Of a DNA stretch of 42,483 bases, positions 2,841 to 35,836 are shown piece after piece. A program made the position numbers and the translations under genes. The DNA is from Nanobdellota archaeon (GTDB lineage Archaea > Nanobdellota > Nanobdellia > Pacearchaeales > GW2011-AR1): contig JAHIVP010000020.1 of NCBI GenBank assembly GCA_018816335.1, forward strand, positions 1 through 42,483. The letters run 5' to 3'. The notes beneath the pieces were generated by a model that saw only the letters and a program-made list of their open reading frames with translations, made no database searches and was not told where the DNA came from. Each line of letters opens with the position of its first letter. Position 1 is the stretch's first letter.

Positions 2841-2893
2841 ATTTTTATTCTATTAAAAGGGAGGGTGGGAGGGTTTTATTATAGAATAAAAAT
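2841..2893 (+). repeat. G-core hairpin element E1
   Basis: The left arm ATTTTTATTCTA (2841-2852) pairs perfectly with TAGAATAAAAAT (2882-2893). Between them are TTAAAA, the core GGGAGGGTGGGAGGG (2859-2873) and TTTTATTA. The right arm carries about two extra bases, giving an asymmetric bulge. The core has four G-runs with one-base loops, a canonical G-quadruplex motif. Confidence 0.85.
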
Positions 2894-3037
2894 AGTTACT
2901 TAATCCCTCTTCCCTCAAACCCCCAGCCACCCCACACCCCCCCTTCCTTACCAAAACCAATCCACTCTCTAACCTCCCTCAAACTCCCCCGCCAACCCAC
3001 CACCCCAAAAATAATGCCCACGCCAATTTAGTTTCCA

Positions 3038-3099
3038 ATTAATTTTTATACTATTAAAAGGAAGGGAGGGTTGGGTTTTATTATAGTATAAAAATTAAT
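3038..3099 (+). repeat. G-core hairpin element E2, next to gatA stop
   Basis: The 16-bp arms ATTAATTTTTATACTA (3038-3053) and TAGTATAAAAATTAAT (3084-3099) are perfectly complementary. The core at 3060-3075 is GGAAGGGAGGGTTGGG. Compared with E1, one arm base pair is swapped from T:A to A:T, with both arms changed. The right arm ends one base before the gatA stop codon. On the gatA transcript the core would be C-rich. Confidence 0.85.
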
Positions 3100-3100
3100 C

Positions 3101-4531
3101 CTAAAATTCAGAAGCAAGAGAAAACATAAAATCCTCATCAAATTTCTTACAAAAAATTTGCATCCCAACAGGAACAGAATCTATATGACCAGCAGGAACA
3201 CTAATCGCACAAATCTCTGCGAGATTTGCAGGGATTGTCAAAGCATCATAAGCATACTCCTCTTCAAAACTTGGCCTTTCTGAAAATTTCCACGGCAAAC
3301 TTGGAGCAGCAGGTAAAATTAAAGCATCAAACTTCTCAAATGCTTTCTCAAACTCTTTCTTAATTATTTCCTTAGCTTTCAATGCTTTTCTATAATATGT
3401 TCCTTCATACTCAGCTTTACTTATCTCTTCTCCTCCTAACATCCTCCTCAAAGCCTCAACACCCGCAGCCTCCTCAAACTTCTTTCCAAACCTTCTTCCA
3501 TCCAACTTCCTAGTCCCAGAAAAAAACTCAACATAAACAATAGGATAATAAGTCTGAACAGCTAAATCAAGATGCTTCAAATCAATCTCTTTAATCTCCC
3601 AATTCTTATCCCTCGCTGTTTCATCTAACTTCTTCTTAATAACATTCATAATCCTCTCATCTGAAATTTTAATCTTAGGAATTCCAATCTTAATTTTATT
3701 TAAATTAAAATGAGAAAATTTATTTCTTAATTTTTTTGGGGGTGAATAGGCGTGGTGGGCAAGGGTGGGTCTTCGCGTAAGCGAACTAGTAGCGGGTGTT
3801 GAAATAAATTTTTGAAAATCCTCACTTATCGGATCTTTTTCATCAGCCCCCTTTATTACATCAAATAATAATTTACAAGACTCAACATCTTTTGCAACAG
3901 GAGCAATCTGATCTAAACTCATAGCTAAATCAATTAATCCATAACGAGAAACAGAACCATAAGTTGGTTTCATTCCAACAACACCACAATGAGAAGCAGG
4001 ATTTCTAATTGAACCTCCTGTATCACTTCCCAAAGCCAAATCACAAAAATCAGCAGCAACACTAGCAGCACTTCCAGATGAAGAACCTCCAGGAACTCTA
4101 TCTAAAGCAGCCGGATTTAAGGTATTTCCAAAAGCAGAATTCTCTCCACTTGAACCAGAAGCAAACTCATCACAATTAGCCATTCCTAAAATAATTCCAT
4201 CTTCTTTCTTAATCTTCTCAATAACAGTTGCATCATACGGGGATTCATAATCTTCAAGTACTTTAGATGCACATGATGCATGAAGCCCTTTAACATTTAT
4301 AGCACTCTTAACAATAATTCCTAATCCAGCAAGTTTCCCTGCTTTTCCAGATTTAATTTTCTTATCAACTTCCCTCGCTTCATTCACAGCATTTGAATTA
4401 ACTTCAAGAACAGCATTTATTTTCTTCCCTTTCTTATTATTCTTATCAATCTCATGAAGAAGTTTTTTAATATTCTTCTCTGCTGTTAATCTTCCTTCTT
4501 TTATTGCTTTTACTTTTTCTAGGGGTTTCAT
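3101..4531 (-). CDS. gatA: Asp/Glu-tRNA amidotransferase subunit A (GatA), with in-frame insert
   Basis: 476 residues of the amidase-signature family. GatA frees ammonia from glutamine and feeds it to GatB, which converts Asp-tRNA(Asn) or Glu-tRNA(Gln) to the amide form. The catalytic triad is visible as Lys75 (GIIVKSA), the cis-Ser at 150 (GGSSSGSAA) and Ser174 (GSDTGGSIRNPA). Residues about 241-276, between DPISEDFQ and NKIKIGIPK, are an unusual Pro/Arg/His/Ser-rich stretch coded by element E3; GatA normally has only a short linker here. The gene is last in an operon led by gatC, and its ATG overlaps the previous stop (ATGA). The C-terminal VPVGMQIFCKKFDED is typical of GatA. Confidence 0.95.
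   Translation of the reverse strand: MKPLEKVKAIKEGRLTAEKNIKKLLHEIDKNNKKGKKINAVLEVNSNAVNEAREVDKKIKSGKAGKLAGLGIIVKSAINVKGLHASCASKVLEDYESPYDATVIEKIKKEDGIILGMANCDEFASGSSGENSAFGNTLNPAALDRVPGGSSSGSAASVAADFCDLALGSDTGGSIRNPASHCGVVGMKPTYGSVSRYGLIDLAMSLDQIAPVAKDVESCKLLFDVIKGADEKDPISEDFQKFISTPATSSLTRRPTLAHHAYSPPKKLRNKFSHFNLNKIKIGIPKIKISDERIMNVIKKKLDETARDKNWEIKEIDLKHLDLAVQTYYPIVYVEFFSGTRKLDGRRFGKKFEEAAGVEALRRMLGGEEISKAEYEGTYYRKALKAKEIIKKEFEKAFEKFDALILPAAPSLPWKFSERPSFEEEYAYDALTIPANLAEICAISVPAGHIDSVPVGMQIFCKKFDEDFMFSLASEF
3715..3812 (+). repeat. G-core element E3 embedded in frame within gatA
   Basis: The arms AAAATTTATTTC (3715-3726) and GAAATAAATTTT (3801-3812) pair over 12 bp. Between them lie a G-rich stretch (3738-3769, including GGGCAAGGGTGGG), a small hairpin TTCGC-GTAA-GCGAA (3772-3785) and GCGGGTG. 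The whole unit is read through in the gatA frame without a stop. It codes for about 33 residues unlike their surroundings, so an element of this family appears to have entered an essential gene and been kept as protein. Confidence 0.75.
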
Positions 4532-4881
4532 TTTTTACTCAACTTTTTAGGTTTAGGCATATAAGTTAACAAAAATAATTTTTTATTAAATTCTAATATT
4601 AATTTATGTTTACAATGAATAGAAACAAACATTTTCTTATCTCCAAAATAAATATCTATACGAGCTTTATCACTTGAAGTCACATCATGCCAATCAGTTT
4701 TAGTCTCATAATTAATTTCTTTCTCTTTATCCTTAACAATATCATACAAATGTAAACGAAGGCCAAAAACCTTCTCGAAAAGCTTTGATAACTCTAGAAC
4801 AATTTTTTGTTTTTTTTCAAAAATATAATAATTAAAATTCCCAGAATTCCCTGTTCCAATAAGTTTAATTTTATTTTTCAT
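4528..4881 (-). CDS. unknown small protein between methyltransferase and gatA
   Basis: 117 residues from the ATG at 4879-4881, which overlaps the upstream stop as ATGA; an upstream in-frame start at 4905 is less likely. The protein is basic and begins MKNKIKLIGTGNSGN. It looks like a small alpha/beta domain with alternating hydrophobic strands (KARIDIYFGDKKMFVSIHCK). No family is recognised. Its own stop overlaps the gatA start as ATGA, so it is translated together with gatA. Confidence 0.7.
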   Translation of the reverse strand: MKNKIKLIGTGNSGNFNYYIFEKKQKIVLELSKLFEKVFGLRLHLYDIVKDKEKEINYETKTDWHDVTSSDKARIDIYFGDKKMFVSIHCKHKLILEFNKKLFLLTYMPKPKKLSKK

Positions 4882-5615
4882 TTTTTTCTCACCTTCCAAA
4901 CACAAAAATTAGGAAAATCCATTGCTTCTCTATAATACCTAGGAAATAATTTTTTTGCTTTTTTTAAAGGTTTACAATCCTCATAATCTAAAATTTCAAA
5001 ACCATTATGAGTTATAATTTTAATAACCGTCCCATAAGTCTTATGAAAATGAACAACTTCCAGTTTCTTTTTTCCATTACTCCAATATCCATAAATTGGT
5101 CTTTCATCAAAATAATCTTCCATCAAGATAAATTTTCTTCTTGCCCATTTCTTTTTTCTTCCTGCAGATCTTATTGGGGTATAATTTGAAAATACAAATA
5201 TTCCGTTTTTCTTAAGAACTCTTTTAACTTCCTTAAAAACTTTATCCCAGTTTTTTAGATGTCCTATAACTAAAGCAGATAAAACAATATCAAATGTTCC
5301 AGACTTAAAAGGTAATTTTTCAACATCTCCCAAGATAAACTCTGCTTTAGGTGCTTCTCCCTTAGCTATTTCCAAAGAATTAATTGAATTATCTAAACCA
5401 ATTACTTTTGCTCCTTTTTTTGATAAAATATTTGCATATCTACCAGGACCACAACCCAAATCTAAAATTTTCTTTCCTTTAACATTTCCCAAAATTTTCA
5501 AGGTAGTTGGCATCTCAAGGAGTTCATTAAAAAAGTAAGGTGTTCCACTTCCTTTTCTCATCTCAAAATAAGCTTCTGCAAATTCATCGTATGCTTTTTT
5601 TATTTTTAGTTTCAT
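4878..5615 (-). CDS. class I SAM-dependent methyltransferase
   Basis: 245 residues. Motif I (ILDLGCGPGRYA, near residue 50) and the acidic residue after the next strand (VIGLDNS) bind S-adenosylmethionine, and GDVEKLPFKSGTFDIV carries the later motifs typical of the Methyltransf_11 group. The substrate is unknown. It overlaps its neighbours by ATGA at both ends (NUDIX upstream, unknown gene downstream), so it belongs to the gatC-gatA operon. Confidence 0.88.
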   Translation of the reverse strand: MKLKIKKAYDEFAEAYFEMRKGSGTPYFFNELLEMPTTLKILGNVKGKKILDLGCGPGRYANILSKKGAKVIGLDNSINSLEIAKGEAPKAEFILGDVEKLPFKSGTFDIVLSALVIGHLKNWDKVFKEVKRVLKKNGIFVFSNYTPIRSAGRKKKWARRKFILMEDYFDERPIYGYWSNGKKKLEVVHFHKTYGTVIKIITHNGFEILDYEDCKPLKKAKKLFPRYYREAMDFPNFCVWKVRKK

Positions 5616-6019
5616 CTCAAATCCTCCTTCTCAATCAAAGCCTTAGTATTAGGAGAAACAAAATGTTTACCTTGCTTAATCTCCTCAATATCTAACCATT
5701 TAATCTCTTGAGTTGGAGCAATCGGTTTAATCTCATCTTTATTTTTTAATTTAGCTAAATAATTAATTAAAACAATTGTCATCTTCTCCTTAGTCTGTGG
5801 ATTTTCCCATAATATATTAGGACTCAAAGGTTTAATCAACTCAACTTCCCCATTAATCTCTTCTTTAACTTTTCTATGACATCCTTCTTCTAATGTCTCT
5901 CCTTCTTTAACAGTCCCTCCAGGAAGTTTATAAAAATCATCTTTATCATCTTTATCAACTAATAATTTCCCATCTTCAATAATCACTGGCCCTGAAGCAA
6001 CAATAAATTTACCTTCCAT
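5612..6019 (-). CDS. NUDIX hydrolase in the gatC-gatA operon
   Basis: 135 residues. A NUDIX box begins YKLPGGTVKEGETLEEGC and continues RKVKEEING, with R-K-V in place of the usual R-E-V and an Asn next to the final Gly. The start is the ATG at 6017-6019, which overlaps the gatC stop as TAATG and has a Shine-Dalgarno sequence (GAGGTG) about nine bases upstream; a TTG nine bases earlier is unlikely. The strong site and overlap suggest coupling to gatC. Substrate unknown. Confidence 0.87.
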   Translation of the reverse strand: MEGKFIVASGPVIIEDGKLLVDKDDKDDFYKLPGGTVKEGETLEEGCHRKVKEEINGEVELIKPLSPNILWENPQTKEKMTIVLINYLAKLKNKDEIKPIAPTQEIKWLDIEEIKQGKHFVSPNTKALIEKEDLR

Positions 6020-6249
6020 TAAACCCAATCACCTCTTTCAGCAACAATACAATCATCATCATGTTTAGGAGCATTCTTCAACATTCTCTTCTTAAAATCA
6101 ATAGAATCAAATTTATCATCCTTAGCATCTCTAACACTCTCCTCTCTTTCAATCTGAACATCAGCTTCATCAATCCCAGCTTTATCTAGAGCTTTCTGAA
6201 ACTTATCCATAACTTGCTTAGCTTCTTTTCTAATCTTCTCTTTATCCAT
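6019..6249 (-). CDS. gatC: GatC-like amidotransferase subunit
   Basis: 76 residues, a typical size for archaeal GatC. The N-terminal half is a charged helix (MDKEKIRKEAKQVMDKFQKA), and the C-terminal part has the GatC-like signature FKKRMLKNAPKHDDDCIVAERGDW, where LKNAP echoes the bacterial GatC LRxNxP-type tail. GatC wraps around GatA and GatB and stabilises the complex. It is the first gene of the operon that ends in gatA, while gatB is 12 kb away at 17939. Identification rests on the tail motif and the operon. Confidence 0.78.
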   Translation of the reverse strand: MDKEKIRKEAKQVMDKFQKALDKAGIDEADVQIEREESVRDAKDDKFDSIDFKKRMLKNAPKHDDDCIVAERGDWV

Positions 6250-6262
6250 TTTAAATTAATTT

Positions 6263-6338
6263 AAAGTTATTAATTAACAATATAACAAACGCCAAAGGCG
6301 TTTCTGGGTGGGTGGGCTGGGGATAATTAATAATCTTT
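6263..6338 (+). repeat. G-core hairpin element E4 with inner hairpin
   Basis: The outer arms TTATTAATTA (6267-6276) and TAATTAATAA (6324-6333) pair, extended by AAAG/CTTT across a one-base bulge. Inside are a perfect hairpin AAACGCC-AAA-GGCGTTT (6287-6303) and the core GGGTGGGTGGGCTGGGG (6306-6322). The inner hairpin and the preceding AATATAACA match element E11, except that one pair is G:C here and A:T there. Confidence 0.85.
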
Positions 6339-6381
6339 CAATTTTACTATAACTATACTCAGAATTAATTGTTTAATAACT

Positions 6382-6636
6382 TTATGTTCCTATCTTTAAA
6401 TCTTGAATTAAAGGGAAAAATTCTCTCATTGAATAATCCTCTGCACCAATTCCAACACACTCTCCATCAACATAAAAAAACTCTAATTCTATAGGCAAAC
6501 TCAAGGATTTATTCATCTTTTTTTCTAATTTTAATATTTCATCATTATACACTCTATGAATTTCCCAATATTTTTTCCAGAATGGAATAAGTTTTGTTTT
6601 TATATTCTCTAATTGTTTTTTAGTCAATTTTTTCAT
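6382..6636 (-). CDS. unknown 84-residue protein
   Basis: A basic helical N-terminal half (KKLTKKQLENIKTKLIPFW) is followed by a strand-rich segment (IELEFFYVDGECVGIGAED). No family is recognised. It stands alone between element E4 downstream and an AT-rich spacer upstream (6637-6759). That spacer contains a likely promoter (TTTAAAT near 6670) and a small palindrome GACCTAAGGTC near 6726. Confidence 0.6.
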   Translation of the reverse strand: MKKLTKKQLENIKTKLIPFWKKYWEIHRVYNDEILKLEKKMNKSLSLPIELEFFYVDGECVGIGAEDYSMREFFPLIQDLKIGT

Positions 6637-6759
6637 ATAATAAATAATTTCAATTAGTATAAGAAGTTTTATTTAAACTATATAGAGACAATACTAAAAA
6701 TCCATTGTATAATCTTACTAATATTGACCTAAGGTCCACCTCTCAAATTAAATAAATAA

Positions 6760-7536
6760 TTATAACTTACCCCAAATATCCAAAAACCTCTCTCGACCCT
6801 TCAAAATATTTTCATAAGGAAACAACTCCAAAATAAAAGGCCCATTATATTTCGCTTTCTTACATTCACTAAAAAATTTCTTAAAATCAATATTCCCTTC
6901 TCCTACACACATATGCTCATCATGCTCACCACCATTATCATGAATATGAACATCCATAATTCTATCATTAAATTTAGCAAAATATTCATCAGGATTATCA
7001 TTAACATTTGCATGCCCAACATCAAAAGTCATCCTTATTCCCTTAACACTATCTGAAACTTTTTTGTAATCTTCAATACTAGCACAAATTCCAGAATCAT
7101 TATTCTCAAAACAAATATTAATATCAAATTTCTTTGCATAATTAACAAGCTCTTTTAAAGTTTCAATTAATGCATTATAATTTTTATCAAGTGCAGGAGG
7201 TGGCATCTCTCTCCAACCAGGATGAACAGTAACTCTATTAGACCCAACTTTTTTTGCTATATCAATTCCTTTCTTAATATTCTCAATAACTGCTTTCTTC
7301 ACTTCAGGGATAATAGTACAAACAGGTAAATACCAAGCAGTATGCACAATTAATTTAACATTATTTTCCTGAGAAAGTTTTTTTATTTCATTCAGAGTCT
7401 TATCACTTAAATTAAAATTCTGTTCCCAATCAAATCCAATCTCAAACCAATCAAATTTATTATCAATAACAAATTTCAAATCATCAAGAACATTTTCAGT
7501 ACTTAACTGCCCCATTACTCCAATTTCTAGTTTCAT
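6760..7536 (-). CDS. sugar phosphate isomerase/epimerase-like TIM barrel
   Basis: 258 residues of the xylose-isomerase-like TIM barrel family (AP endonuclease 2 superfamily). Metal-site motifs are visible: an early VHTAW, HPGW (residue about 105), ENN (near 142), FDVGHAN (near 172), DVHIHDN (near 196) and a closing LELFP. Members isomerise or epimerise sugars, or cut abasic DNA (endonuclease IV). Length and motifs fit the isomerase branch better, but the substrate is unknown. Its start lies one base after the stop of aspS, so the two form an operon. Confidence 0.85.
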   Translation of the reverse strand: MKLEIGVMGQLSTENVLDDLKFVIDNKFDWFEIGFDWEQNFNLSDKTLNEIKKLSQENNVKLIVHTAWYLPVCTIIPEVKKAVIENIKKGIDIAKKVGSNRVTVHPGWREMPPPALDKNYNALIETLKELVNYAKKFDINICFENNDSGICASIEDYKKVSDSVKGIRMTFDVGHANVNDNPDEYFAKFNDRIMDVHIHDNGGEHDEHMCVGEGNIDFKKFFSECKKAKYNGPFILELFPYENILKGRERFLDIWGKL

Positions 7537-7537
7537 T

Positions 7538-8830: not shown

Positions 8831-8851
8831 AACTTTCATAGAAATACTATA

Positions 8852-8859
8852 TTTATAAA
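8852..8859 (-). promoter_or_regulatory. TATA box of aspS
   Basis: TTTATAAA on the minus strand, centred about 26 nt before the ATG at 8830 but only 16 nt before the ATG at 8839. The spacing supports the downstream start and a leaderless message. Confidence 0.55.
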
Positions 8860-8877
8860 ACCTACGAAATATTGAGA

Positions 8878-9023
8878 GTGTCTAATAATTCAATAAAAAT
8901 ATATTTTCAATCGACGTTATTTTATTATTTTCTTCATTCGGGAGGGATGGGCTGGGGGATGGAGGGGGGGATTATAAAATAACGTAGTAAAAACTACATG
9001 AAAATAATTTATTTTTTAGACAC
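8878..9023 (+). repeat. G-core element E5, 146 bp, GTGTCTAA ends
   Basis: The ends are GTGTCTAA (8878-8885) and TTAGACAC (9016-9023). Further in, a perfect 12-bp stem is formed by ACGTTATTTTAT (8914-8925) and ATAAAATAACGT (8974-8985), enclosing TCTTCATTC and the G core 8940-8970. A small hairpin GTAGT-AAAA-ACTAC sits beside the right arm. E13 is a second copy with the same ends and core flank but a differently sequenced, still perfect, 12-bp stem. Confidence 0.88.
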
Positions 9024-9033
9024 GAACGAAATC

Positions 9034-9723: not shown

Positions 9724-9811
9724 TTTCACCACTTCTTTCAACTTTAATAGAACTTAATCCTTATAAAATTATTGACATCAAAAAAATTCTTGTTATAAAT
9801 AAAAAAATATT

Positions 9812-9915
9812 ATTTTATTCCACAATAAAGGGTGGGTGAGCGATTTCACGAGGAGATGAAAATTGACTAACGAGTGAAGTCTGGAGTTGGGAGGGTTTAT
9901 TGTGTAGAATAAAAT
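9812..9915 (+). repeat. G-core element E6 with split core
   Basis: The arms ATTTTATTC-CACAATAAA (9812-9829) and TTTATTGTG-TA-GAATAAAAT (9896-9915) form two 9-bp helices separated by a TA bulge on the right side. The G core is split: GGGTGGG (9830-9836) at the left and GGGAGGG (9889-9895) at the right, with a central insert of about 50 bp. E12 shares this layout, including GAGTTGGGAGGGT at the right edge. The insert segment 9837-9852 matches 14 of 16 bases at 12174-12189 in E7. Confidence 0.85.
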
Positions 9916-9961
9916 TAGAAGAAATATAGTATGAAAAAATTTTAATAAAATTATAGATTAA

Positions 9962-10162: not shown

Positions 10163-10208
10163 ATCTATATCAACATATTATTATTTATAAAACTTACCTA
10201 AAAAACAA

Positions 10209-12085: not shown

Positions 12086-12274
12086 GTTGTACGGAATAGC
12101 ATGATTTTACTAAATTAGGAGGGGTTTAGGGATGGGGGTAGGGAGGGTATCGACGATAATCGAAGTTTAGTGGTGAGTGATTTCGCGAGTGGGGGTTAGG
12201 AATTATTTAATATGGTGGCGAGCGGGGTCAGGAATAGGATAATAAAATCATGAGAAACTTTAATTCCGGACAAC
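12086..12274 (+). repeat. G-core element E7 (large, complex)
   Basis: Nested arms: GTTGTACGGAAT (12086-12097) pairs with ATTCCGGACAAC (12263-12274) with one mismatch, and CATGATTTTA (12100-12109) pairs perfectly with TAAAATCATG (12243-12252). The interior is G-rich throughout, with a dense block at 12118-12147 (AGGGATGGGGGTAGGGAGGG near its end) and further G-runs near 12190 and 12222. The segment 12174-12189 resembles part of E6. It follows the radical SAM gene and precedes a + strand gene, so any transcript would be G-rich. Confidence 0.78.
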
Positions 12275-12547: not shown

Positions 12548-13981
12548 CTATTCCTTAACTAATTTTTTAAGTATCTCCATAATCTCACTCCCACTCACTT
12601 TTCCTTTAAACTCCTTCATAACCAAACCCATATAACTCTTTACTGTCAATCCAGGTTTAGACTTAACAATATTCATAATCTCATCTTCTAAATTATCAAC
12701 ATCTTCCTTCTTCATAGCATCCTCAACAGGAATCCCAGAAACAATTTTTTCCAAAATTCCTTTCACATCACCTTCAGAAATTTGTTTTTTCTTAATATTA
12801 TTAATTACTTCCTCAAAAACATCTAAATGTAATTTCTCATCAACCTCATCAACATTCTTATCTAACCTCTTAGCAATCTCTTTAGGCCAAAGAACAAGCA
12901 TCTTAGCTATAAAGTTAGGCTCCCCTAACAATTGCAACAACTCCTTATACTCCTCAACCTTATTATTCTGTAATACTAAAGAAATCATCTCTTCACTCAA
13001 TCCCTCTTTCTTCAGTTCCTTCTTAATCTCACTCCTCAACTTCGGCAAATTCTTTCTAACAACATTAATCTCATCCCTAGAAATATGCAACAACTTCAAA
13101 TCAGTTTCAGGATACATTCTTGCAGCTCCAGGCAATGGTCTCATAAATTCACTCTCTCCATTTTCCAAAGCATTTCTAACCTCTGCAACACTATCTCCTT
13201 TCTCAACTAACTTCTTCTGTCTTTTCATCTCATTCTCAATTGAATTAATAATCAAATCAGGTTCCTGAACACCTTTCATCTCTATTCTCTCTGACCACTC
13301 TCCTCCAAAAGAAAAACTCATATTAACATCTTGCCTTATTGTCCCAATTCCTCTCTTAACTTTACAAGCTCTCAAAATATCTCCTATCTTCAAAGCAGCT
13401 TCCTTAGCCATCTCTTTATCATCAATATCTGGCTCTGTCACAATCTCAACCATTGGAATTCCTAATCTATCTAATCTATAAACATTCTTATCTTTCCCTT
13501 TCTTAATAACTCTCGCAGCATCTTCTTCCAAAATAACTTTCATAATTCCAACCTTTCCTTTAGAAGTTTCAATATAACCATCTTGCCCAATTAAAACAGT
13601 TCTCTGAAAACCAGAAACATTACTTCCATCAATAACAGTCTTTCTCATAACCTGAGTATCCTGGATAATATCACAATTCAACAACAAAGAAATCTGTAAA
13701 GCAATCTTCAAAGCTTCTTTATCTATATCTCTCGGAGGCTCTTCATCTAAATCAACTAAACAAACATTATCATTATAACATTCATACTCAAAAATCTTAT
13801 CTTTAGCAGCCTCATGTTCAACAGCAACATCCACCTCCCCACCTTCCCCAGCAACACTATGCAACTTTCTCTCAACTTTATAATCCGGTTCTTCCTTTCT
13901 CAAAAACCCAGGACACCTACAAAATAACTTTCCTGTATCAAGCTGCTGATGAATTTCTAATCCTGCTTTTAATTCTTCCAT
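12548..13981 (-). CDS. gatE: Glu-tRNA(Gln) amidotransferase subunit E (GatE), short form
   Basis: 477 residues. GatE with GatD converts Glu-tRNA(Gln) to Gln-tRNA(Gln) in archaea. The signatures are GatE rather than GatB: GLEIHQQLDTGKLFC, CLVDLDEEPP, MRKTVIDGSNVSGFQRT, EEDAAR and RPLPGAARMYPETD. A helical C-terminal YqeY-like tail ends the protein. Known GatE proteins are about 620-630 residues because an AspRS-like GAD domain sits before the PGAARMYPETD motif. Here only about 15-20 residues separate the GVQEPDLI helix from EVRNALENGESEFMRPLPG, so that domain is absent. gatD lies 1.6 kb upstream on the same strand. Confidence 0.95.
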   Translation of the reverse strand: MEELKAGLEIHQQLDTGKLFCRCPGFLRKEEPDYKVERKLHSVAGEGGEVDVAVEHEAAKDKIFEYECYNDNVCLVDLDEEPPRDIDKEALKIALQISLLLNCDIIQDTQVMRKTVIDGSNVSGFQRTVLIGQDGYIETSKGKVGIMKVILEEDAARVIKKGKDKNVYRLDRLGIPMVEIVTEPDIDDKEMAKEAALKIGDILRACKVKRGIGTIRQDVNMSFSFGGEWSERIEMKGVQEPDLIINSIENEMKRQKKLVEKGDSVAEVRNALENGESEFMRPLPGAARMYPETDLKLLHISRDEINVVRKNLPKLRSEIKKELKKEGLSEEMISLVLQNNKVEEYKELLQLLGEPNFIAKMLVLWPKEIAKRLDKNVDEVDEKLHLDVFEEVINNIKKKQISEGDVKGILEKIVSGIPVEDAMKKEDVDNLEDEIMNIVKSKPGLTVKSYMGLVMKEFKGKVSGSEIMEILKKLVKE

Positions 13982-15254: not shown

Positions 15255-15629
15255 TCATAAAGGTAAATATTTTTTAAGAGCTTCTCTAAGCCTGGGTCTA
15301 GTCCACTTTTTTTGAAAGCTAACATAATCTAAGTCTCTCAAATGAGCCTTATCTTCAGGAATTAATCTCTTAGAATCAGTAACATCCAAAACAATAACTT
15401 TCTTCTTCAACTTAGGAAACTTCTTCTTTAAAATTTTAACTAACCTCTTTCTCACTATAATAATAACATCTGCCCAATCAACATATTTTAGATTCAATTG
15501 ATTAATAGCATCATCTTCAATTCCCCCACTCCTTGTCGAATAACCTTTCCCCCTCAAATACTGAGCTAAATATCTACTTCTATTAGCTCCCTGTGCACAG
15601 ATACATAAAACATTTAATTTCTTTCTCAT
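15255..15629 (-). CDS. low-molecular-weight protein tyrosine phosphatase-like protein
   Basis: 124 residues with a phosphatase P-loop at the N-terminus: LNVLCICAQGANRSR holds the CX5R signature, Cys11 to Arg17. The rest (WADVIIIV, VIVLDVTD) fits a small Rossmann-like fold. It resembles the short predicted tyrosine phosphatase family rather than classical LMW-PTP. Its start overlaps the stop of gatD as ATGA, so it is co-translated with gatD; a link to tRNA amidation is not known. Confidence 0.8.
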   Translation of the reverse strand: MRKKLNVLCICAQGANRSRYLAQYLRGKGYSTRSGGIEDDAINQLNLKYVDWADVIIIVRKRLVKILKKKFPKLKKKVIVLDVTDSKRLIPEDKAHLRDLDYVSFQKKWTRPRLREALKKYLPL

Positions 15630-16891
15630 TTTTCAATCCTATCAGAAATTTCACCAGCATAATTAATCAACATCTTATCCTTAAATTCATATTTCCACTT
15701 TTTATGTCCAAGTATCCAACCACTTTTAATCAAAGCAGTTTCAGCCAACATATCTTTACAAAAAACAGCTCCTGTCTTCTCAAAAGTCCTTCCATTAGAA
15801 TAAACATTAGGATTTAAACTTCCAAAAATTGTTTGAGCACAAACAGCAACTTTTAAACCAGAATCAATAACTTTTTTTAATTTAGCAATCCAACTTTTCT
15901 TTCCAGAAACAGCAACATGTCCTAATCCCCCCACCTCCAAAACAATCCCTTCATAACGTGAAGCATAATAATCTAAAATCTCAGGATCCATTCCAGGATA
16001 ATATTTTACTAAAGCAACCTTATCATTAAACACAACATCTAAACTAACTTTTCCCTCATTTCTTCTAACAAACTCATCTAAATACTCAATCTTTCCATCA
16101 GAATTTATCTTAGCAATTGGAGAAGCATTAACACTTTTGAAAGCATCTCTTCTAGAACTATGTAACTTCCTAACCTTAGTTCCTTTATGAGCAAAACAAA
16201 AATCATCATTCTGACTTCCATGCCCAACTAACATAACTTCAGCAACATTTGAAACAGCCATTCTAGCTGCACATTCTAAATTCAAAGCAGCATCACTCGA
16301 AGCTCTATCTGTTGACCTCTGAGAATAAGTCAAAACAACAGGCTTATTCAAATCCTTAAGAAAAAACGAAAGAGCAGCAGAAGTATAATGTAAAAAATCA
16401 GTCCCATGAGTAACAATAACTCCAGAAACCTCAGAATCATTCAAACTCTTCTCAACAACCTTAGCAATCTTAATCCAGTGCTCAGAATTCATATCTTCTG
16501 AAGAAACCATAAACGGAACTTCAATCTTCCTAACATTAGCTATCTTAAACAACCCAGGATAATATTTCAACAACTGCTCTGGTTTAGTCAAATTAGAAAC
16601 AGCTCCTGTCTTAGCATCAAGCGAACTAGAAATCGTTCCTCCTGTAATAATTATATCAACATTAGGCAAAGCAGGATTCTTCTCATAATTATACTCCTCA
16701 CGTTCTGTTTTAAATTTCTCAACAACCTCAATCTTATGAACATTCTCTTTCTTAATCCCAATATTATACCCACTCTTCAACTTAATCAAATACAACTCTG
16801 TCTTAGGACTTTCAAGTAATCTTCCTTCAACTTCACCCTTAATTGTTGTTAATTTCACTATATCTCCTACTTCAGGTTTTTCTTCTGCCAT
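15626..16891 (-). CDS. gatD: Glu-tRNA(Gln) amidotransferase subunit D (GatD)
   Basis: 421 residues. An N-terminal Sm-like barrel (VGDIVKLTTIKGEVEGRLL, residues 8-60) precedes an L-asparaginase domain, the arrangement unique to GatD. Active-site motifs are Thr86 in IIITGGTIS and Thr164-Asp165 in VTHGTDFLHY, with QRSTDRASSDAA further on. GatD hydrolyses glutamine or asparagine to supply ammonia to GatE. Ahead of it lie a methyltransferase and element E8; it overlaps the phosphatase gene downstream. Together with gatE it predicts tRNA-dependent Gln synthesis and no need for a GlnRS. Confidence 0.96.
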   Translation of the reverse strand: MAEEKPEVGDIVKLTTIKGEVEGRLLESPKTELYLIKLKSGYNIGIKKENVHKIEVVEKFKTEREEYNYEKNPALPNVDIIITGGTISSSLDAKTGAVSNLTKPEQLLKYYPGLFKIANVRKIEVPFMVSSEDMNSEHWIKIAKVVEKSLNDSEVSGVIVTHGTDFLHYTSAALSFFLKDLNKPVVLTYSQRSTDRASSDAALNLECAARMAVSNVAEVMLVGHGSQNDDFCFAHKGTKVRKLHSSRRDAFKSVNASPIAKINSDGKIEYLDEFVRRNEGKVSLDVVFNDKVALVKYYPGMDPEILDYYASRYEGIVLEVGGLGHVAVSGKKSWIAKLKKVIDSGLKVAVCAQTIFGSLNPNVYSNGRTFEKTGAVFCKDMLAETALIKSGWILGHKKWKYEFKDKMLINYAGEISDRIEK

Positions 16892-17755: not shown

Positions 17756-17869
17756 CTTACACCCTTTTATTTTTCAATGACATTTAACTATAAAAACATT
17801 ATTAAACTTCTATAAATACTTCTAATTAACACATAATCAGAAAATTTTGTTCCATAAAAGAAAAGAGTT

Positions 17870-17922
17870 ATTTTACTCCAGAATAAAGGGTGGGTGGGAG
17901 GGTTTATTATATGGAGTAAAAT
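17870..17922 (+). repeat. G-core hairpin element E8 in the gatB promoter
   Basis: The arms ATTTTACTCCA (17870-17880) and TGGAGTAAAAT (17912-17922) pair over 11 bp. The core GGGTGGGTGGGAGGG (17888-17902) is flanked by GAATAAA and TTTATTAT. The right-arm extension TTTATTATAT lies about 30 nt before the gatB start and could act as its TATA box. This is the simplest member of the family. Confidence 0.87.
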
Positions 17923-17938
17923 TAGGAGAGTTTTTATA

Positions 17939-19327
17939 ATGGGAAAAAATTCAAAAAACAAAATGCAAGACATAAAAATAGGTCTAGAAATCCACGGCTA
18001 TCTAAACACAGAAAAAAAACTATTCTGCAATTGTGATTCAATTCATAGCCCCACAACAATACCTAATACTTCAATATGCCCAATCTGCACAGGCCAACCA
18101 GGAAGCAAACCAATGAAACCAAACAAAGAAGCAATTGAAAAATTTCTCCAAACATCTTTAATGTTAAACTGTAAAATAAATCCTAAATTCAGATTTCAAA
18201 GAAAACATTACAACTGGCCAGACCTTCCAAAAGGTTACCAAGATACAATTTCCGGAGCTCATAGTACAAACCCCGCAGTTGAAGGAAAATTTGAAAATAT
18301 AAAAATAATAGAAGCTCATTTAGAAGAAGACCCTGCAGCATGGAACCCAGAAACAGGTTGCATAGATTACAATCGTTCAGGACTTCCCTTAATAGAAATT
18401 GTAACATATCCAGAATTCAAAACATCAGAAGAAGTTGCAACCTGGCTAAAAAATCTAATCCTAACTTTAAGCTACATAAAAACAATAGATAAAAAACTAG
18501 GACTAAAAGTAGATGTCAATATTTCTATAAATCAAGAGTTCGGAGGAAACAGAGTTGAAGTAAAAAATCTTCATTCAATTGAAGAAATAAAAAAAGCAAT
18601 AGAATTTGAAATAATTAGACAAGAAAAACAAGGAACACAAAAAGAAACAAGAAGATATGACAGCTCAAAAAATCAAACAACTGTTATGAGAGCAAAAGAA
18701 AACCTAGAAGACTATGAATTTATTCCTGACCCAGATCTTCCAACAATAACTCTTGATAAAAAACAAACAGAAAAAATAAAATCATCACTTCCTGAATCTC
18801 CTCAACAAAAACTAAAAAAACTAATTAAAAAACACAAAATAAACACCTATAGTGCTAATGTATTATCCAAAAATTTAGAAATTGTAGAATTCTTTGAACA
18901 TGTAGCAGAATCTATACCTCCGGCATTTGCTTTAGACTGGATAACAATTGAATTATTAAGAGTTCTAAAATATAATAAAAAAGAATTAGACCAAGTAGAA
19001 ATTAATGTTAAACATTTTATAGAACTTCTCCAAGCAGTAAAAGATAAAAAACTAACAGAACTAAAAGCAAAACAAATTCTAAATCAATTCATTCCTAAAT
19101 CTTTTTCAATTAAAGACACATTAAAAGATGTAAAAACAATTGACAACAAATCACAAATAGAAACACTTGCAAAACAAGTTATAAAAGAAAACCCAAAAGC
19201 AGTAGAAGACTTTAAAGCAGGAGAACAAAAATCCATAAACTTTCTTATTGGTCAAGTTATGAGATTATCAGAAAGAAGAGCTGATTTTAAAGTTGCTAAA
19301 AATATACTTGAGAAATTATTAAAATGA
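17939..19327 (+). CDS. gatB: Asp/Glu-tRNA amidotransferase subunit B (GatB)
   Basis: 462 residues. GatB phosphorylates the tRNA-bound Asp or Glu and amidates it with ammonia from GatA. The catalytic cradle shows GLEIHGYLNT, a zinc site (FCNCDS and CPICTGQPG), YNWPDLPKGYQDTIS, EEDPAAW and DYNRSGLPLIEIVT. The C-terminal helical and YqeY-like domains bind tRNA. The ATG at 17939 has a GGAGAG site eight bases upstream; an upstream GTG start at 17894 would lie inside element E8 and is rejected. gatA and gatC are 12 kb away. Confidence 0.95.
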   Translation: MGKNSKNKMQDIKIGLEIHGYLNTEKKLFCNCDSIHSPTTIPNTSICPICTGQPGSKPMKPNKEAIEKFLQTSLMLNCKINPKFRFQRKHYNWPDLPKGYQDTISGAHSTNPAVEGKFENIKIIEAHLEEDPAAWNPETGCIDYNRSGLPLIEIVTYPEFKTSEEVATWLKNLILTLSYIKTIDKKLGLKVDVNISINQEFGGNRVEVKNLHSIEEIKKAIEFEIIRQEKQGTQKETRRYDSSKNQTTVMRAKENLEDYEFIPDPDLPTITLDKKQTEKIKSSLPESPQQKLKKLIKKHKINTYSANVLSKNLEIVEFFEHVAESIPPAFALDWITIELLRVLKYNKKELDQVEINVKHFIELLQAVKDKKLTELKAKQILNQFIPKSFSIKDTLKDVKTIDNKSQIETLAKQVIKENPKAVEDFKAGEQKSINFLIGQVMRLSERRADFKVAKNILEKLLK

Positions 19328-28852: not shown

Positions 28853-28857
28853 AATAA

Positions 28858-29022: not shown

Positions 29023-29098
29023 ACGTAAATAAACTAATTATCTTGATTTTATAAATCTTAGCAAAATATAAAAACCCATAATCCTAACTAAAATCACC

Positions 29099-29342: not shown

Positions 29343-29359
29343 TTCAACCCACAATAAGA

Positions 29360-29409
29360 AGCAACCCTACAAAAGGGTGGGTGGGCTTTGGGTTTTATAT
29401 AGGGTTGCT
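29360..29409 (+). repeat. G-core hairpin element E9 upstream of proS
   Basis: The arms AGCAACCCTA (29360-29369) and TAGGGTTGCT (29400-29409) pair over 10 bp and can be extended by ACAAT (29351-29355) with ATTGT (29411-29415). The core GGGTGGGTGGGCTTTGGG (29375-29392) is followed by TTTTATA. The proS TATA box (near 29428) lies outside the element. Confidence 0.85.
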
Positions 29410-29457
29410 CATTGTTAATTAAACAAAATTTAAATAACACAAAAACTAACTATAAAT

Positions 29458-30921: not shown

Positions 30922-31463
30922 AACTCACAAAAAACAGCAGCAGAAATAACAGTAGTCCACATCCCCTTCTTATTCCCTTCAGCAGTCTGACAAATATTAT
31001 GTGTCTTAATTATATGTCCAGAAGATTTATACTGTTGCTCTCTTTCTTCCCAAGCTTTATCAACATCAAACTCAATACCTAAAGTTGTAGCTAACATTGT
31101 AGCAGCTAAATCTTCAGCATAATCCCCTGCTTTCTTAGCAGTATCACCAAACGAATGATGCTCAGATAAATAACCATAATTACTATTATCTTTAGGAACA
31201 GCAATTCCAATTGAACTTGAAACTAATCTATTCGGCTCATTTGTCTCATTCCTTGCCATAACACAAAATGTTATCTGCCCAGGTTTTAGTAATTTTACCC
31301 CTTCATCTTTAGAAACAATTTTACAATGAGGAGGCAATATAGAAGAAACATAAACCAAATTAGATTTTTCAATACCAGCAGCCCTCAAGGCCAATTCAAA
31401 AGATGCTAATTTATCTTTATGAACCCCAACACCCTTAGTTAAAAATAATTTTTTTGGAATCAT
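30918..31463 (-). CDS. pdaD: pyruvoyl-dependent arginine decarboxylase
   Basis: 181 residues. The proenzyme self-cleaves between the two serines of VYVSSILPP (Ser40-Ser41) to form the pyruvoyl group on the new N-terminus. [24 protein letters not shown] is typical of the alpha chain. It decarboxylates arginine to agmatine, the first step of archaeal polyamine synthesis. It is convergent with proS, their tails overlapping by four bases. The deoxyhypusine synthase gene 2.2 kb away uses spermidine, a product of this pathway. Confidence 0.95.
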
Positions 31464-31487
31464 TAATTAAATTGTGAAAATTTGTTT

Positions 31488-32696
31488 TTAAACTTTCCCA
31501 TATATTCTATTCTCAATAACCTTCTTAGTTTTAAAAGACAATAAAAACAATCCAAACATAAACACAGCAAATAATAAAAAAACAAACTTAAAAGGCAAAA
31601 ACACTAAAACAGTCGCAGCTGAAACCTCTCCAAGAAACTGAGTTACATCTATTGATGTATTATATGGAGCATAAAATCTACATTCATCTTTCTTTTTCAA
31701 AATATCTAAAAAATAAGCTTCTGTCGTCGGTTCTACCATTGCCATTCCAAAACTTCCTAAAACTAAAATTCCCAAAGTCAAAATAATATTTGAACTAATA
31801 AAAAAACAAACCAAAGAAACAAGAGCAACAATTAAAAACCCTAAAACAAAAATTTTCTTAAATCCAACTCTTCCTGCTAGTTTTGAAAAATAATATTCAA
31901 ATAAAATCAAAGGAATAACAACAGCAGCAAAAAAATACCCAATCCACAGAACATCATAACCATTAAGTACAATATAAAGAGGAATAAAAAGATAAACAAA
32001 GACCCACCACAAATTAACACCACCTCCTAAAAAATATGCAACAGCCCTATCTTTATCCTTAAAAAAGTTTTTAAAATTTTTAACCAAACTACCATCTACT
32101 TTTTTCTGGATATTTGCATCTCTTACTTTAAAAAAACCAAAAACCAAAAAAGCAATAAAAACAAAAACCCCTGCAACAAGAAAAACAAAATGATTACCAT
32201 ATCTTTGTGCAAACAAACCTGCAGCCAAAGGTCCAACTAAAAAAGCAATATTAAAAAAAGTATACATCAAACCCTCATTTCGAGAAACATCTTTTTTCTG
32301 TGACTTATCCTTAATCATAATCCCCCAAACACTAATCCTTATTGCAGTCAAGATAACAATAGCCAAAGCCAGAAAAACAAAAAAATAAATTTTAGTTAAA
32401 AACGCAAAACCAAAATAAACAATTGCAATCCCAAAAAGAGAATAATAATACATTCTTGCTTTATTTGACTTTTCAATAAAAGGAATAATAACAAAAAAAG
32501 CAATAAAAGAAATAATAGTCATGCTAGCTGAAAAATATCCAACCAAGTAAGGACTTCCTAATATATCTTCAAGATAAACCGCCCAGATAGTACTAACAAA
32601 CGACGCTGCAATTGCAACTAAAAATCCCACAACAGCCAGCTTAGCAATTCCAGTAAATCCAAAAACCCCCCTATGCTTTCTAAACATCACACTCAT
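31488..32696 (-). CDS. MFS transporter
   Basis: 402 residues with 12 predicted membrane helices and a basic cytoplasmic loop in the middle (KKVDGSLVKNFKNFFKDKDRA). Segments such as FFNIAFLVGPLAAGLFAQRYG in outline fit the major facilitator superfamily drug/sugar porter type. The substrate is unknown. It lies 24 bp upstream of pdaD on the same strand, so a role in polyamine or arginine export or uptake is possible but not shown. Confidence 0.87.
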   Translation of the reverse strand: MSVMFRKHRGVFGFTGIAKLAVVGFLVAIAASFVSTIWAVYLEDILGSPYLVGYFSASMTIISFIAFFVIIPFIEKSNKARMYYYSLFGIAIVYFGFAFLTKIYFFVFLALAIVILTAIRISVWGIMIKDKSQKKDVSRNEGLMYTFFNIAFLVGPLAAGLFAQRYGNHFVFLVAGVFVFIAFLVFGFFKVRDANIQKKVDGSLVKNFKNFFKDKDRAVAYFLGGGVNLWWVFVYLFIPLYIVLNGYDVLWIGYFFAAVVIPLILFEYYFSKLAGRVGFKKIFVLGFLIVALVSLVCFFISSNIILTLGILVLGSFGMAMVEPTTEAYFLDILKKKDECRFYAPYNTSIDVTQFLGEVSAATVLVFLPFKFVFLLFAVFMFGLFLLSFKTKKVIENRIYGKV

Positions 32697-32756
32697 AATT
32701 TAATATAGATAAATGAAGATTTAAATTTATCTAATATTTAAAAGAATAATCCAATA

Positions 32757-32972
32757 TTATCTTGCTTCAACACTTACCCCAGGTATCTGTCTTAATAACT
32801 CTAATGTTTTTTCATCTAGTGGTCTTTTTTGTTGATTTAACCAATCAAAATCATCTGCGGAATCAAGAGCTGCAGAATAATTTCCTGAACCCAAAATCCC
32901 TACTACTCTTCGAATACCAGTATCTCTCTCATCAGGAATAATTTCGATTCTATAAATATAACTCTTTGCCAT
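32757..32972 (-). CDS. unknown 71-residue protein
   Basis: A small soluble protein: a strand-rich start (KSYIYRIEIIPDERDTGIRR), then a helical acidic segment (AALDSADDFDWLNQQKRPLD) and an end IPGVSVEAR. No family is recognised. It has an AT-rich promoter region just upstream (TATTTATAAA near 33010). Confidence 0.62.
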   Translation of the reverse strand: MAKSYIYRIEIIPDERDTGIRRVVGILGSGNYSAALDSADDFDWLNQQKRPLDEKTLELLRQIPGVSVEAR

Positions 32973-33037
32973 TTTAATTTTATAATGTTATTACTATATA
33001 ATTAATATTTATAAACCTTTCTATCTCACAGTGATAG

Positions 33038-33154
33038 TCAAACCCTCTGTTTTTGAGATTTTTCTAAATACTAATTAATTTAGCACCGAAGGTGCTAAGG
33101 GTGGGTGATGGGAAGGGAATCTATTTAGAAAAACCTAATTTTAGAAGGGTTTGA
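33038..33154 (+). repeat. G-core element E10 with inner hairpin and long stem
   Basis: The outer helix TCAAACCCT (33038-33046) pairs with AGGGTTTGA (33146-33154). After an internal loop, TTTTTCTAAATA (33059-33070) pairs with TATTTAGAAAAA (33122-33133). Inside are the hairpin TTAGCACC-GAA-GGTGCTAA (33080-33098) and the core GGGTGGGTGATGGGAAGGG (33099-33117). The layout is as in E4 and E11. Confidence 0.87.
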
Positions 33155-33166
33155 TCAACGCCTATC

Positions 33167-34072
33167 TCACAAAACACTTCCAATAATCAAAGGCAAAACA
33201 ACAGTTGCATCACAAATAACATCAACAAAATCAGATTCCTTATTCATCTTTCCCCAAGAAATCCCCTCAGCCAAAGGAGCTCCTGAACTTCCCCCATCAT
33301 AAGGAGTTGCAGTTGAAATCTGCACACCATATTCTGCTCCTTTTGAAAACTGCAAACTTTGCTGAATAAAATTCTTAGAAAATCCCCCATTAACATATAA
33401 AACTCCAGACTTCTTAGCTGTCCAAGCAATATCAATAATCTCTTTCATATCTTCAAATGTAGGAAGGTCAAATTTTTCTTCAGAACTCTTAGACTTTTTC
33501 CCCAAAATCATCAACCCAATTCCAGAATCAGCTATGGCCGGGCAAAAAATAGGAATCTTCTTCTTCCAACATTTAGTTAAAATACAATCATCCTTATCCA
33601 ACAACTCCCCAAGCTTCCATAAAAATTCCTTTATAGTCTTTGTCTTATTAATCTCTTCCCAATTACCTTCAAAAAACTTCTCCATATCTTCATAAACTTC
33701 ATTCTTCATCAAAACATTATAAATCCTATCTAGCCCTTTCTCATTTAATTCTTCATCATCAAAATGCTCTCCACAATGATGATAATGATGATGCCCTAAT
33801 GCCTCAATTAAATCATGAGTCATATTAGCACCAGTTGTAACAAAAACATCAACTCTATCAAGAATATCTAAAATAATTTGTTTCATTCCCCCAGGAACCA
33901 TTGCTCCTGCCAATCCAAAAAAAACAGTGCATTCTTTATCATCAATCATTTTTTTCAAAACTCGCGAAGCTTTGTTTATTTTATTAGCAGTAAAACCAAT
34001 TTCTCCCATCTGTTCAACTAAATCAACAACCTTCATTTCTTTTTCAACTTTAATATGTTTTATTTCTTTCAT
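33167..34072 (-). CDS. dhs: deoxyhypusine synthase
   Basis: 301 residues, a compact archaeal form. It transfers the butylamine group of spermidine to a lysine of aIF5A using NAD. Recognisable blocks are FFGLAGAMVPGGMK, DVFVTTGANMTHDLIEALG, IFCPAIADSGIGLMI, VNGGFSKNFIQQS with the catalytic-type Lys, and ATPYDGGSSGAPLAEGISWGK for the NAD and spermidine site. It lies between elements E10 and E11. Confidence 0.95.
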   Translation of the reverse strand: MKEIKHIKVEKEMKVVDLVEQMGEIGFTANKINKASRVLKKMIDDKECTVFFGLAGAMVPGGMKQIILDILDRVDVFVTTGANMTHDLIEALGHHHYHHCGEHFDDEELNEKGLDRIYNVLMKNEVYEDMEKFFEGNWEEINKTKTIKEFLWKLGELLDKDDCILTKCWKKKIPIFCPAIADSGIGLMILGKKSKSSEEKFDLPTFEDMKEIIDIAWTAKKSGVLYVNGGFSKNFIQQSLQFSKGAEYGVQISTATPYDGGSSGAPLAEGISWGKMNKESDFVDVICDATVVLPLIIGSVL

Positions 34073-34085
34073 AGTTTTGTCTCCA

Positions 34086-34157
34086 AATTCTGTGGATTAA
34101 TAATATAACAAACACCGAAGGTGTTTAGGGGGGTGGGAGGGAACAATCCACAGAATT
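34086..34157 (+). repeat. G-core element E11 with inner hairpin
   Basis: Perfect 13-bp arms AATTCTGTGGATT (34086-34098) and AATCCACAGAATT (34145-34157). Inside are the hairpin AAACACC-GAA-GGTGTTT (34110-34126) and the core GGGGGGTGGGAGGG (34128-34141). AATATAACA before the hairpin is shared with E4. Within the hairpin, the A:T pair here is G:C in E4. Confidence 0.88.
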
Positions 34158-34239
34158 AAAATAAGATTAATAATTAGGAATCTCTTTCGATTCTAACAAT
34201 AATCTAGTTTCTACCATAATCATAAAACTTTTGAATAGT

Positions 34240-35262
34240 TTATAAAACTTCTCTTTCTACCCTAGATTTAAACTCCTCCAAATCTCCTTTAGAAAGTGAA
34301 GCTCCAGTAGCATCCCTATGCCCACCCCCCCGCGCCCCAACCAAACCATTAATAACTTTCTCTGTTATTTTCAAAACATTCTTTCCCCTAAAAGAAACAT
34401 TAACTTTCTCTCCCATAATATAAGCAACAACTACAATTTTCCCAGGATATAAATAACTCAACTCATTAGACAAATCAGCACTCATACTAAAATCTCCAGA
34501 ATACTCAAAAAAAACTAAATTATCCTTAACACTATTCTTAGCCTTCTCTAATATCTTCTGATACTTACCATCTAAAAATTCAAACCTCTTCCATAAAAAA
34601 TTATTCTCTCTACTTTCTTTCAAAACATCATAAGGAGATTTAACCTTAAACAAAAACTTAATCATCATAACAACTTTAGTAATAGAATCTTTTAATCCAA
34701 AATTAAATACTCTCCCTATCTTCCCAATATCAGTATTATACAACGCATCAAAAGCCTTATCAACTTTCTTAAACAAATCAGGATTTTCTTTAGCAAACTC
34801 CTCTGCAAAATCAGGCAAATAATTATCAGAAATACAACCTACCATTGCAATCCACATATCTTCCTTATTCTCAACAACCTTCCAACAAATATAAGTTACA
34901 GGGGTGTCTGTATCATTATAATAATAAACATAATCCAAACTCTCCCTCTCAACTTCAACATCATGATGATCAATCCAAACAACAGGAATATTTCTTTCTT
35001 TCAATCCTAAAATAAATTCAGGAGCAACAATTGGTTTATCTAAAATAAAAACATAATCAGGATTTAACTCATCAATTTTCCTCAAATACGATTCATTCAA
35101 ATCAGGGAAACTCTTTACAGCAACCCCTTTTCCTCTATCATAAGCCCTTCTCAACAACAAAAACCCACATAAACCATCATTATCATTATCAAAAAAGAAT
35201 AAAGGATTCTGAGCTTTCTCTAGATGATTTCTTATTTCCTTAGTTTGTTTTTCACTTAACAT
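34240..35262 (-). CDS. DHH-family phosphoesterase (second copy)
   Basis: 340 residues. Motif I is FFFDNDNDGLCGF (near residue 22), the DHH motif is VVWIDHHDVEVE (near 93), and the C-terminal DHHA1 motif is VGARGGGHRDATGAS (near 312). MVGCISDNYLPDF holds the intermediate aspartate. It belongs to the RecJ-like archaeal group (exonuclease, RNase or GINS-associated factor). Divergence from the 303-1355 protein suggests a separate job. Confidence 0.87.
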   Translation of the reverse strand: MLSEKQTKEIRNHLEKAQNPLFFFDNDNDGLCGFLLLRRAYDRGKGVAVKSFPDLNESYLRKIDELNPDYVFILDKPIVAPEFILGLKERNIPVVWIDHHDVEVERESLDYVYYYNDTDTPVTYICWKVVENKEDMWIAMVGCISDNYLPDFAEEFAKENPDLFKKVDKAFDALYNTDIGKIGRVFNFGLKDSITKVVMMIKFLFKVKSPYDVLKESRENNFLWKRFEFLDGKYQKILEKAKNSVKDNLVFFEYSGDFSMSADLSNELSYLYPGKIVVVAYIMGEKVNVSFRGKNVLKITEKVINGLVGARGGGHRDATGASLSKGDLEEFKSRVEREVL

Positions 35263-35314
35263 AATAATTAAATTTTTGTACCATAATTAACTTTCTTTTA
35301 CAATCATTAACATA

Positions 35315-35431
35315 TTAATTTTATCCTATTAATAGGGTGGGCGAGCGTTTGCAGTTTTATGTATCTAAACAATATGCTTGACAAACTGCGGGCGCGAGTT
35401 GGGAGGGTATTAATATATAGGATAAAATTAA
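35315..35431 (+). repeat. G-core element E12 with split core
   Basis: The arms TTAATTTTATCCTA (35315-35328) and TAGGATAAAATTAA (35418-35431) pair over 14 bp. Next to the core, TTAATA faces TATTAATATA, leaving extra bases on the right. The G core is split into GGGTGGG (35335-35341) and GGGAGGG (35401-35407). The central insert folds through GCAGTTT (35351-35357) and AAACTGC, so it carries its own hairpin. It matches E6 at both core edges. Confidence 0.85.
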
Positions 35432-35487
35432 AACAAAAATTTCAAATTTATCTAAACTAATTCAGAAAAATTACAATATAAACCTAA

Positions 35488-35646
35488 CTATTCAGGAAAA
35501 CCAGGAGGATTAGGATAAGAATTCCCAGAAAAAAACTCACTAACTTTATCTGCAACCCCCTCTCCAAACCCACCAAACAAAGCAAATAAAATAAACATAA
35601 TTACAACAATAACAATTATTAACAATATCATCAACCCTTTTTTCAT
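35488..35646 (-). CDS. tiny single-pass membrane protein with PPGFPE tail
   Basis: 52 residues from the ATG at 35644-35646 to a TAG at 35488-35490. MKKGLMILLIIVIVVIMFIL is one membrane helix. It continues FALFGGFGEG, then a short polar part, and ends NPPGFPE. The tail resembles those of the 39027-39194 and 38311-39024 proteins (PPALPE, PPSLP). The gene is bracketed by elements E12 and E13. No family is recognised. Confidence 0.72.
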   Translation of the reverse strand: MKKGLMILLIIVIVVIMFILFALFGGFGEGVADKVSEFFSGNSYPNPPGFPE

Positions 35647-35692
35647 ATGATAACAAAGAAGAAAACATATTTAAACTTGACGATACGAGTGA

Positions 35693-35836
35693 GTGTCTAA
35701 TAATTCAAAATAATTTTTTAGTTTATCAACGCAGTTTCATTAATTTTATCTTCATTCGGGAGGGAGGGAGGGGGATGGAGGGGAGATATGAAACTGCGTA
35801 AGAGAAATATGTTAAATTTAATTTATTTTTAGACAC
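35693..35836 (+). repeat. G-core element E13, 144 bp, GTGTCTAA ends
   Basis: A second copy of the E5 type. The ends GTGTCTAATAATTCAA (35693-35708) and TTAGACAC (35829-35836) match E5. The flank TCTTCATTC and a G core (35758-35785) also match. The 12-bp inner stem ACGCAGTTTCAT (35729-35740) / ATGAAACTGCGT (35788-35799) is perfect but differs from E5 at four to five base pairs, changed on both sides. Confidence 0.88.

Follow-up and report, generated by a model that had tools for sequence, protein, structure and literature searches.

The window analysed here, a 42,483-nucleotide stretch of archaeal DNA, holds 13 G-rich palindromic elements that are probably small, non-autonomous mobile elements of a Ca. 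Pacearchaeota lineage, with insertion coupled to the replication fork. They are insertions. Arms and core are inherited together, the arms covary, the copies keep to one strand with respect to replication, and genes tolerate them in frame. The window is contig C31 of a Ca. Pacearchaeota MAG (G000; 0.9 Mb in 45 contigs, 82% complete), whose AspRS scores 63-70% to those of Ca. Pacearchaeota MAGs and which encodes archaeal GatE and GatD. Both Glu-tRNA amidotransferase systems, gatA/gatB and gatD/gatE, lie in the window (3101-4531, 12548-13981, 15626-16891 and 17930-19327), where the GatE ORF has only 477 aa; ORFs were called by simple rules.

All 13 places singled out by a sequence-only reading of the window hold a G-rich core between complementary arms, with the G-runs on the plus strand, and the set is real and far above chance. 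The four or more G-runs ascribed to most cores are present in strict form (G3x4 with loops of 1-7) in eight elements, while the other five have three G3 runs or split G-runs; G-quadruplex formation by the cores is a prediction made at the level of the motif. What that reading called one family does share one design, which is better described as at least four structural classes. We named these A to D, sorting by structure. Class A is built as stem, 2-nt bulge, stem and GGGTGGGTGGGAGGG, with a 12-bp outer stem, a 7-bp inner stem and a loop of about 15 nt; class B as arms, a purine-triloop hairpin and a G-tract; and class C, of about 150 nt, has terminal inverted repeats GAGCGTGTCTAA, its copies running from GAGCGTGTCTAA to TTAGACACGCTC. 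Sizes range from about 53 to 155 nt, and the elements of the window, with the one gene that hosts a copy, are as follows.

E1, 2841-2893, plus strand: class A; arms ATTTTTATTCTAT / ATAGAATAAAAAT, core GGGAGGGTGGGAGGG
E2, 3038-3099, plus strand: class A; outer arms of 17 bp, core GGAAGGGAGGGTTGGG
gatA, 3101-4531, minus strand: host gene of E3
E3, 3715-3812, plus strand: class D; in frame within gatA (gene on minus strand), about 28 aa extra relative to other Pacearchaeota GatA
E4, 6266-6334, plus strand: class B; hairpin AAACGCC-AAA-GGCGTTT, then GGGTGGGTGGGCTGGGG
E5, 8874-9024, plus strand: class C; outer inverted repeat GAGAGTGTCTAA...TTAGACACG, inner stem 8914-8985, core GGGAGGGATGGGCTGGGGG
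E6, 9811-9916, plus strand: long class A; core GGGTGGG...GGGAGGG split by a conserved inner hairpin domain of about 50 nt
E7, 12100-12252, plus strand: long class D; CTAAATTAGGAGGGG...GGGAGGGT-hairpin-TTTAGTGG, outer arms of 10 bp
E8, 17869-17923, plus strand: class A; directly upstream of gatB
E9, 29356-29413, plus strand: class A variant; AGCAACCCTA arms, GGGTGGGTGGGCTTTGGG; upstream of proS
E10, 33059-33133, plus strand: class B; GCACC-GAA-GGTGC hairpin; further weak outer pairing at 33038-33152
E11, 34086-34157, plus strand: class B; AAACACC-GAA-GGTGTTT hairpin, perfect 13-bp arms
E12, 35315-35431, plus strand: long class A; perfect 15-bp arms
E13, 35689-35840, plus strand: class C; outer inverted repeat GTGTCTAA...TTAGACAC, inner stem 35729-35799

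The proposal that the elements fill nearly every long spacer other than promoters and tRNA spacers needs trimming, since 10 of the 14 internal gaps longer than 115 bp contain one and four, the tRNA spacer among them, do not; E3, counted there as a spacer element, lies instead inside a gene. The spacer between E1 and E2 (2897-3037) is C-rich and has G-quadruplex-type runs on the minus strand, opposite to the elements and without arms. Short palindromes of the GAGCGATTTCGCGAG type are numerous in relatives (G013, G108 and G168), near or adjoining class B elements, and similar wording is found inside long class A elements and E7.

A single fixed rule was applied: three G3 runs, separated by gaps no longer than 12 and enclosed by complementary arms scoring at least 10. 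It returns 68 armed clusters in a sample of 412,128 bases of the same genome and 0-1 in each of ten second-order Markov shuffles. At E<=1, a covariance model built from 13 class A copies has 62 matches in the whole genome; five are weak antisense echoes of other matches, which leaves about 57 distinct places. They are spread over many contigs, so that the condition set for refuting the family, absence from the other contigs of the genome, does not hold. With classes B, C and D added to these 57 or so, the total per genome would, by extrapolation, probably come to about a hundred or more. No element matches Rfam, which returned only tRNA and a chance Xist match below threshold; no viral contig with the element core was found, and the open-access literature searched yielded no published description of such elements.

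Pairing in the stems is conserved through change. In the training set of class A, 16 of 19 pairs have changed on both sides and 95% of cells pair; over 52 distinct copies, in an alignment fitted to the structure, this rises to 18 of 19. One-sided changes are few, which may reflect pairing at the DNA level or repair of the palindrome with one arm serving as template for the other, and covariation this strong could also reflect host selection for function. The arms had been thought largely specific to each copy, which is not wholly so: those of class A have AATTTTA...TAAAATT in common, and arms travel with the element. Derivation of the arms from the target site was considered and rejected because the same arms recur in copies at different loci, for instance gcgcggttttt in two copies of G130 at separate loci. 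Two half-elements of differing arm types flank the class A element at G000:C36:51205-51257, perhaps a chimera from recombination between copies; this locus and C2:34706 had looked like nested copies, but are not counted as proof because their outer halves match each other poorly.

Copies within genes identify the elements as insertions. E3 adds about 28 codons to gatA, in frame, at a linker that has no insert in GatA of 11 other Pacearchaeota. Other in-frame hosts in the same genome, identified by Pfam or PDB matches and with the insertion evident at the protein level, are polB, pheT, tyw3, dus, trm5 (Trm5/Tyw2-type methyltransferase), an XPF-like gene (ERCC4/XPF nuclease), an RsmB-like methyltransferase gene and bud32, which has two copies. 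In PheT, residues 264-292 of the query, 29 residues against 5 in the archaeal structure, coincide exactly with the element, and alignments to homologues have gaps at the elements in tyw3, XPF, bud32 (both copies) and polB, the last being weaker evidence because its extra region is larger than the element alone. Six in-gene copies run with the gene and four against it, and they are therefore not gene-oriented introns. Class B is likewise found in frame in relatives: in gatA of G168 (G168:C9), where the insertion point is the linker also used by E3, in pheT of G013, and in a gene of G108 that we take, from reading its sequence, to be agmatinase/arginase-like. In G003, of the same genus as G168, the gatA insertion is degraded and has lost its G-runs and hairpin relative to G168, as expected of an insertion that decays. 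The same surface linker of GatA has received two different element classes independently in two genera (G000 and G168).

Orientation is locked to replication across the genome, a fact absent from the sequence-only reading. In 67 of the 68 armed elements (16 contigs, 412 kb) the G-runs lie on the C-rich strand of replication (binomial p=5e-19); matches to the class A model have a single orientation within each contig, all of them consistent; and about 20 of 21 elements in other genera obey the same rule, the exception lying on a stretch of near-zero skew (G130:C36). Within each contig, genes on either strand agree in the sign of their GC3 skew, and the skew is therefore driven by replication; it is very strong, attaining 0.8-0.9 at third positions for leading-strand genes in all sampled G000 contigs. 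The flanking genes occur in balanced configurations (13 minus-minus, 12 plus-plus, 10 minus-plus and 6 plus-minus), and this lack of any tie between orientation and gene direction speaks against a role as transcription insulator, one of those suggested earlier. Of 79 G3x3 clusters on the G-rich strand, 78 are without arms; bare clusters being common there, the lock is not accounted for by mere intolerance of the motif. We assume that, as in most prokaryotes, the leading strand of this genome is the G-rich one; if so, the G-runs are in the leading-strand template and the lagging-strand template carries the complementary hairpin with a C-rich loop. The 88-kb contig with the single orc1/cdc6 (G000:C23:6000-88761) has 2 elements against 12.3 expected from spacer length (P=4e-4), a scarcity for which avoidance near the origin or a mis-binned contig are possible reasons. 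Both of its elements lie in its first 6 kb, and no skew switch to place the origin was found at that contig.

Element ends and occurrence also point to mobility. Of five full-length class C copies, three have 9-bp target-site duplications, two of them perfect (CTGACTAAT and CCACAAGAT) and one matching at 8/9 (TCTCTTACA/TCTCTTATA); E5 has only a degenerate flanking repeat, and E13 is likewise without a clean duplication. Classes A, B and D showed no target-site duplications above permuted controls, and the classes may therefore differ in how they move. In 27 aligned copies of class A a one-sided conserved TTA precedes ATTTT at the left foot; with flanks unaligned, the exact ends of the elements are uncertain. 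Class A occurs in 1 of 76 genomes, G000 itself, and is missing from the 75 other genera, while the class B pattern is patchy within the same family, in several genera (G031, G108, G130, G013, G168 and G003), often in one species but not its congeners; it is present in G130 and in none of six congeners. Matches outside the family appear to be single and without class B wording. When the spacers of G130 congeners were searched for empty sites, their flanks proved too diverged, and only a shorter pilin-cluster spacer in G131 was seen. The suggestion of a non-autonomous mobile element is thus supported by in-frame gene insertions absent from homologues, by the class C duplications and by species-patchy occurrence; the single-strand nature also proposed for it would fit the strand lock.

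On the preferred reading, a putative enzyme, or several, would recognise the folded hairpin with its G-rich loop and act in trans, inserting the element at or behind the replication fork. Fork-coupled insertion would fix orientation at insertion and ignore gene direction. Copies that disrupt genes would be lost, whereas spacer copies and in-frame copies in surface loops would persist and then decay. Class C may use a different route from A, B and D. As to candidates, no Y1 transposase (PF01797) match was found in G000 (82% complete), and a Y1 transposase was rejected as mobiliser, having no co-occurrence with the elements across 15 genomes; so was reverse transcriptase, whose presence does not track them. 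G000 has one reverse transcriptase domain, in a 353-aa frame (G000:C45:23376-24038), and reverse transcriptases are common in relatives, possibly as parts of diversity-generating retroelements. We tentatively entertain, with more doubt than conviction, a hitherto undescribed mobile-DNA mechanism of DPANN archaea. Its recognised single-stranded substrate would be a hairpin that closes over a G-quadruplex (or over the complementary C-rich sequence), inserted at one strand of the fork only, and its enzyme would be something other than a Y1 transposase or a reverse transcriptase.

Several other explanations deserve to be weighed against mobility coupled to the fork. The elements might be marks of replication or segregation maintained by the host, like KOPS or Chi, with G-quadruplex hairpins read by a motor, helicase or polymerase and their orientation kept by selection. 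In favour of such a mark, orientation follows replication at 67:1, the stems are kept through compensatory change and the G-runs persist although mutation on that strand is strongly biased against G (GC3 skew). However, class A is missing from 75 other genera and occurrence is patchy within genera, the 88-kb contig nearly lacks elements, and copies sit in frame inside essential genes, decay (as in gatA of G003) and, in class C, have target-site duplications, all of which makes us regard a host-maintained mark as improbable; of the chromosome or replication mark raised by the sequence-only reading, only the strict tie to replication stands. Alternatively, mobile elements might insert both ways and those in the wrong orientation be purged, a G-quadruplex on the lagging-strand template being harmful. 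G-quadruplex motifs can indeed be orientation-dependent obstacles to replication, and the evidence for mobility applies here as well, but the armless clusters that make up 78 of 79 on the G-rich strand indicate that such motifs are tolerated there, and the purge would need to be nearly complete; we therefore think this unlikely.

A reading as structured RNA (riboswitch-, terminator- or sRNA-like) transcribed from the G-strand is one to which we give very little credence. Variable covarying stems around conserved loops resemble structured RNA, and T.G pairs and a GAAA-like loop occur in the inner hairpin of long class A. Yet orientation bears no relation to the neighbouring genes, copies within genes are found on either strand of the gene, and nothing in Rfam matches; nor is there an excess of G.T over A.C arm mismatches (3 vs 2), weak evidence given the few cells and arms chosen for complementarity.

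On the features tested, the elements appear to work like Rickettsia palindromic elements (RPEs) and REPs but to be members of neither. RPEs are also small multi-copy palindromes in frame in a wide range of unrelated protein genes, and no enzyme is known to mobilise them (PMC10969869), whereas here the host is an archaeon, the core is of G-quadruplex type, arms covary, orientation strictly follows replication, most copies are in spacers and there are several classes; a G-tract core is not part of the description of RPEs in PMC10969869, the description with which alone we compared them. REP/RAYT systems and IS200/IS605 ends share with our elements high-copy hairpins, the stem-bulge-stem plan of class A and possibly insertion without target-site duplication, none having been detected in that class (PMC6006769). 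Like REPs, class A has numerous copies between genes of a short hairpin or stem-bulge(1-3)-stem, but its loop is about 15 nt; across the elements the G-run loops are at least 15 nt against 2-5 nt in REPs, the 5' foot has TTA instead of GT[AG]G in the 27 aligned class A copies, and the genome yielded no Y1 transposase. Orientation set by replication is known for Tn7 in its TnsE pathway, for IS608, which has a lagging-strand-type bias (PMC6006769, PMC5371812), and for clamp-binding insertion sequences (PMC5371812), and the elements are similarly biased; Tn7 and the clamp-binding sequences, however, are autonomous with known proteins, whereas no such proteins were identified here. Class C resembles MITEs derived from DDE transposons in its terminal inverted repeats about 150 bp apart and its 9-bp duplications, and differs from them in a second inner stem with a G-rich loop, in having one orientation only and in that no longer parent element with class C ends was seen in about 412 kb of G000, about half of the genome. 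Intrastrand triplex motifs and bacterial G-quadruplex repeats are likewise dispersed multi-copy non-B DNA motifs (PMC4666352), but our elements lack the third-strand purine/pyrimidine mirror design of the triplex motifs, and have covarying arms around a G-tract and strand-locked copies. With arms enclosing a G-tract loop, their structure offers no grounds for expecting attC sites of an integron.

If this reading is true, the elements would be a rare counterpart in archaea to palindromes inserted in frame into essential genes. Their 67:1 replication-orientation bias would be among the most one-sided of any small repeat, and would let fork direction be read out naturally from the genomes of uncultured DPANN. 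The reading also raises the question of which enzyme reads a G-tract-looped hairpin at the fork. Insertion elements that repeatedly add surface loops to core enzymes would, finally, bear on how reduced genomes gain protein segments.
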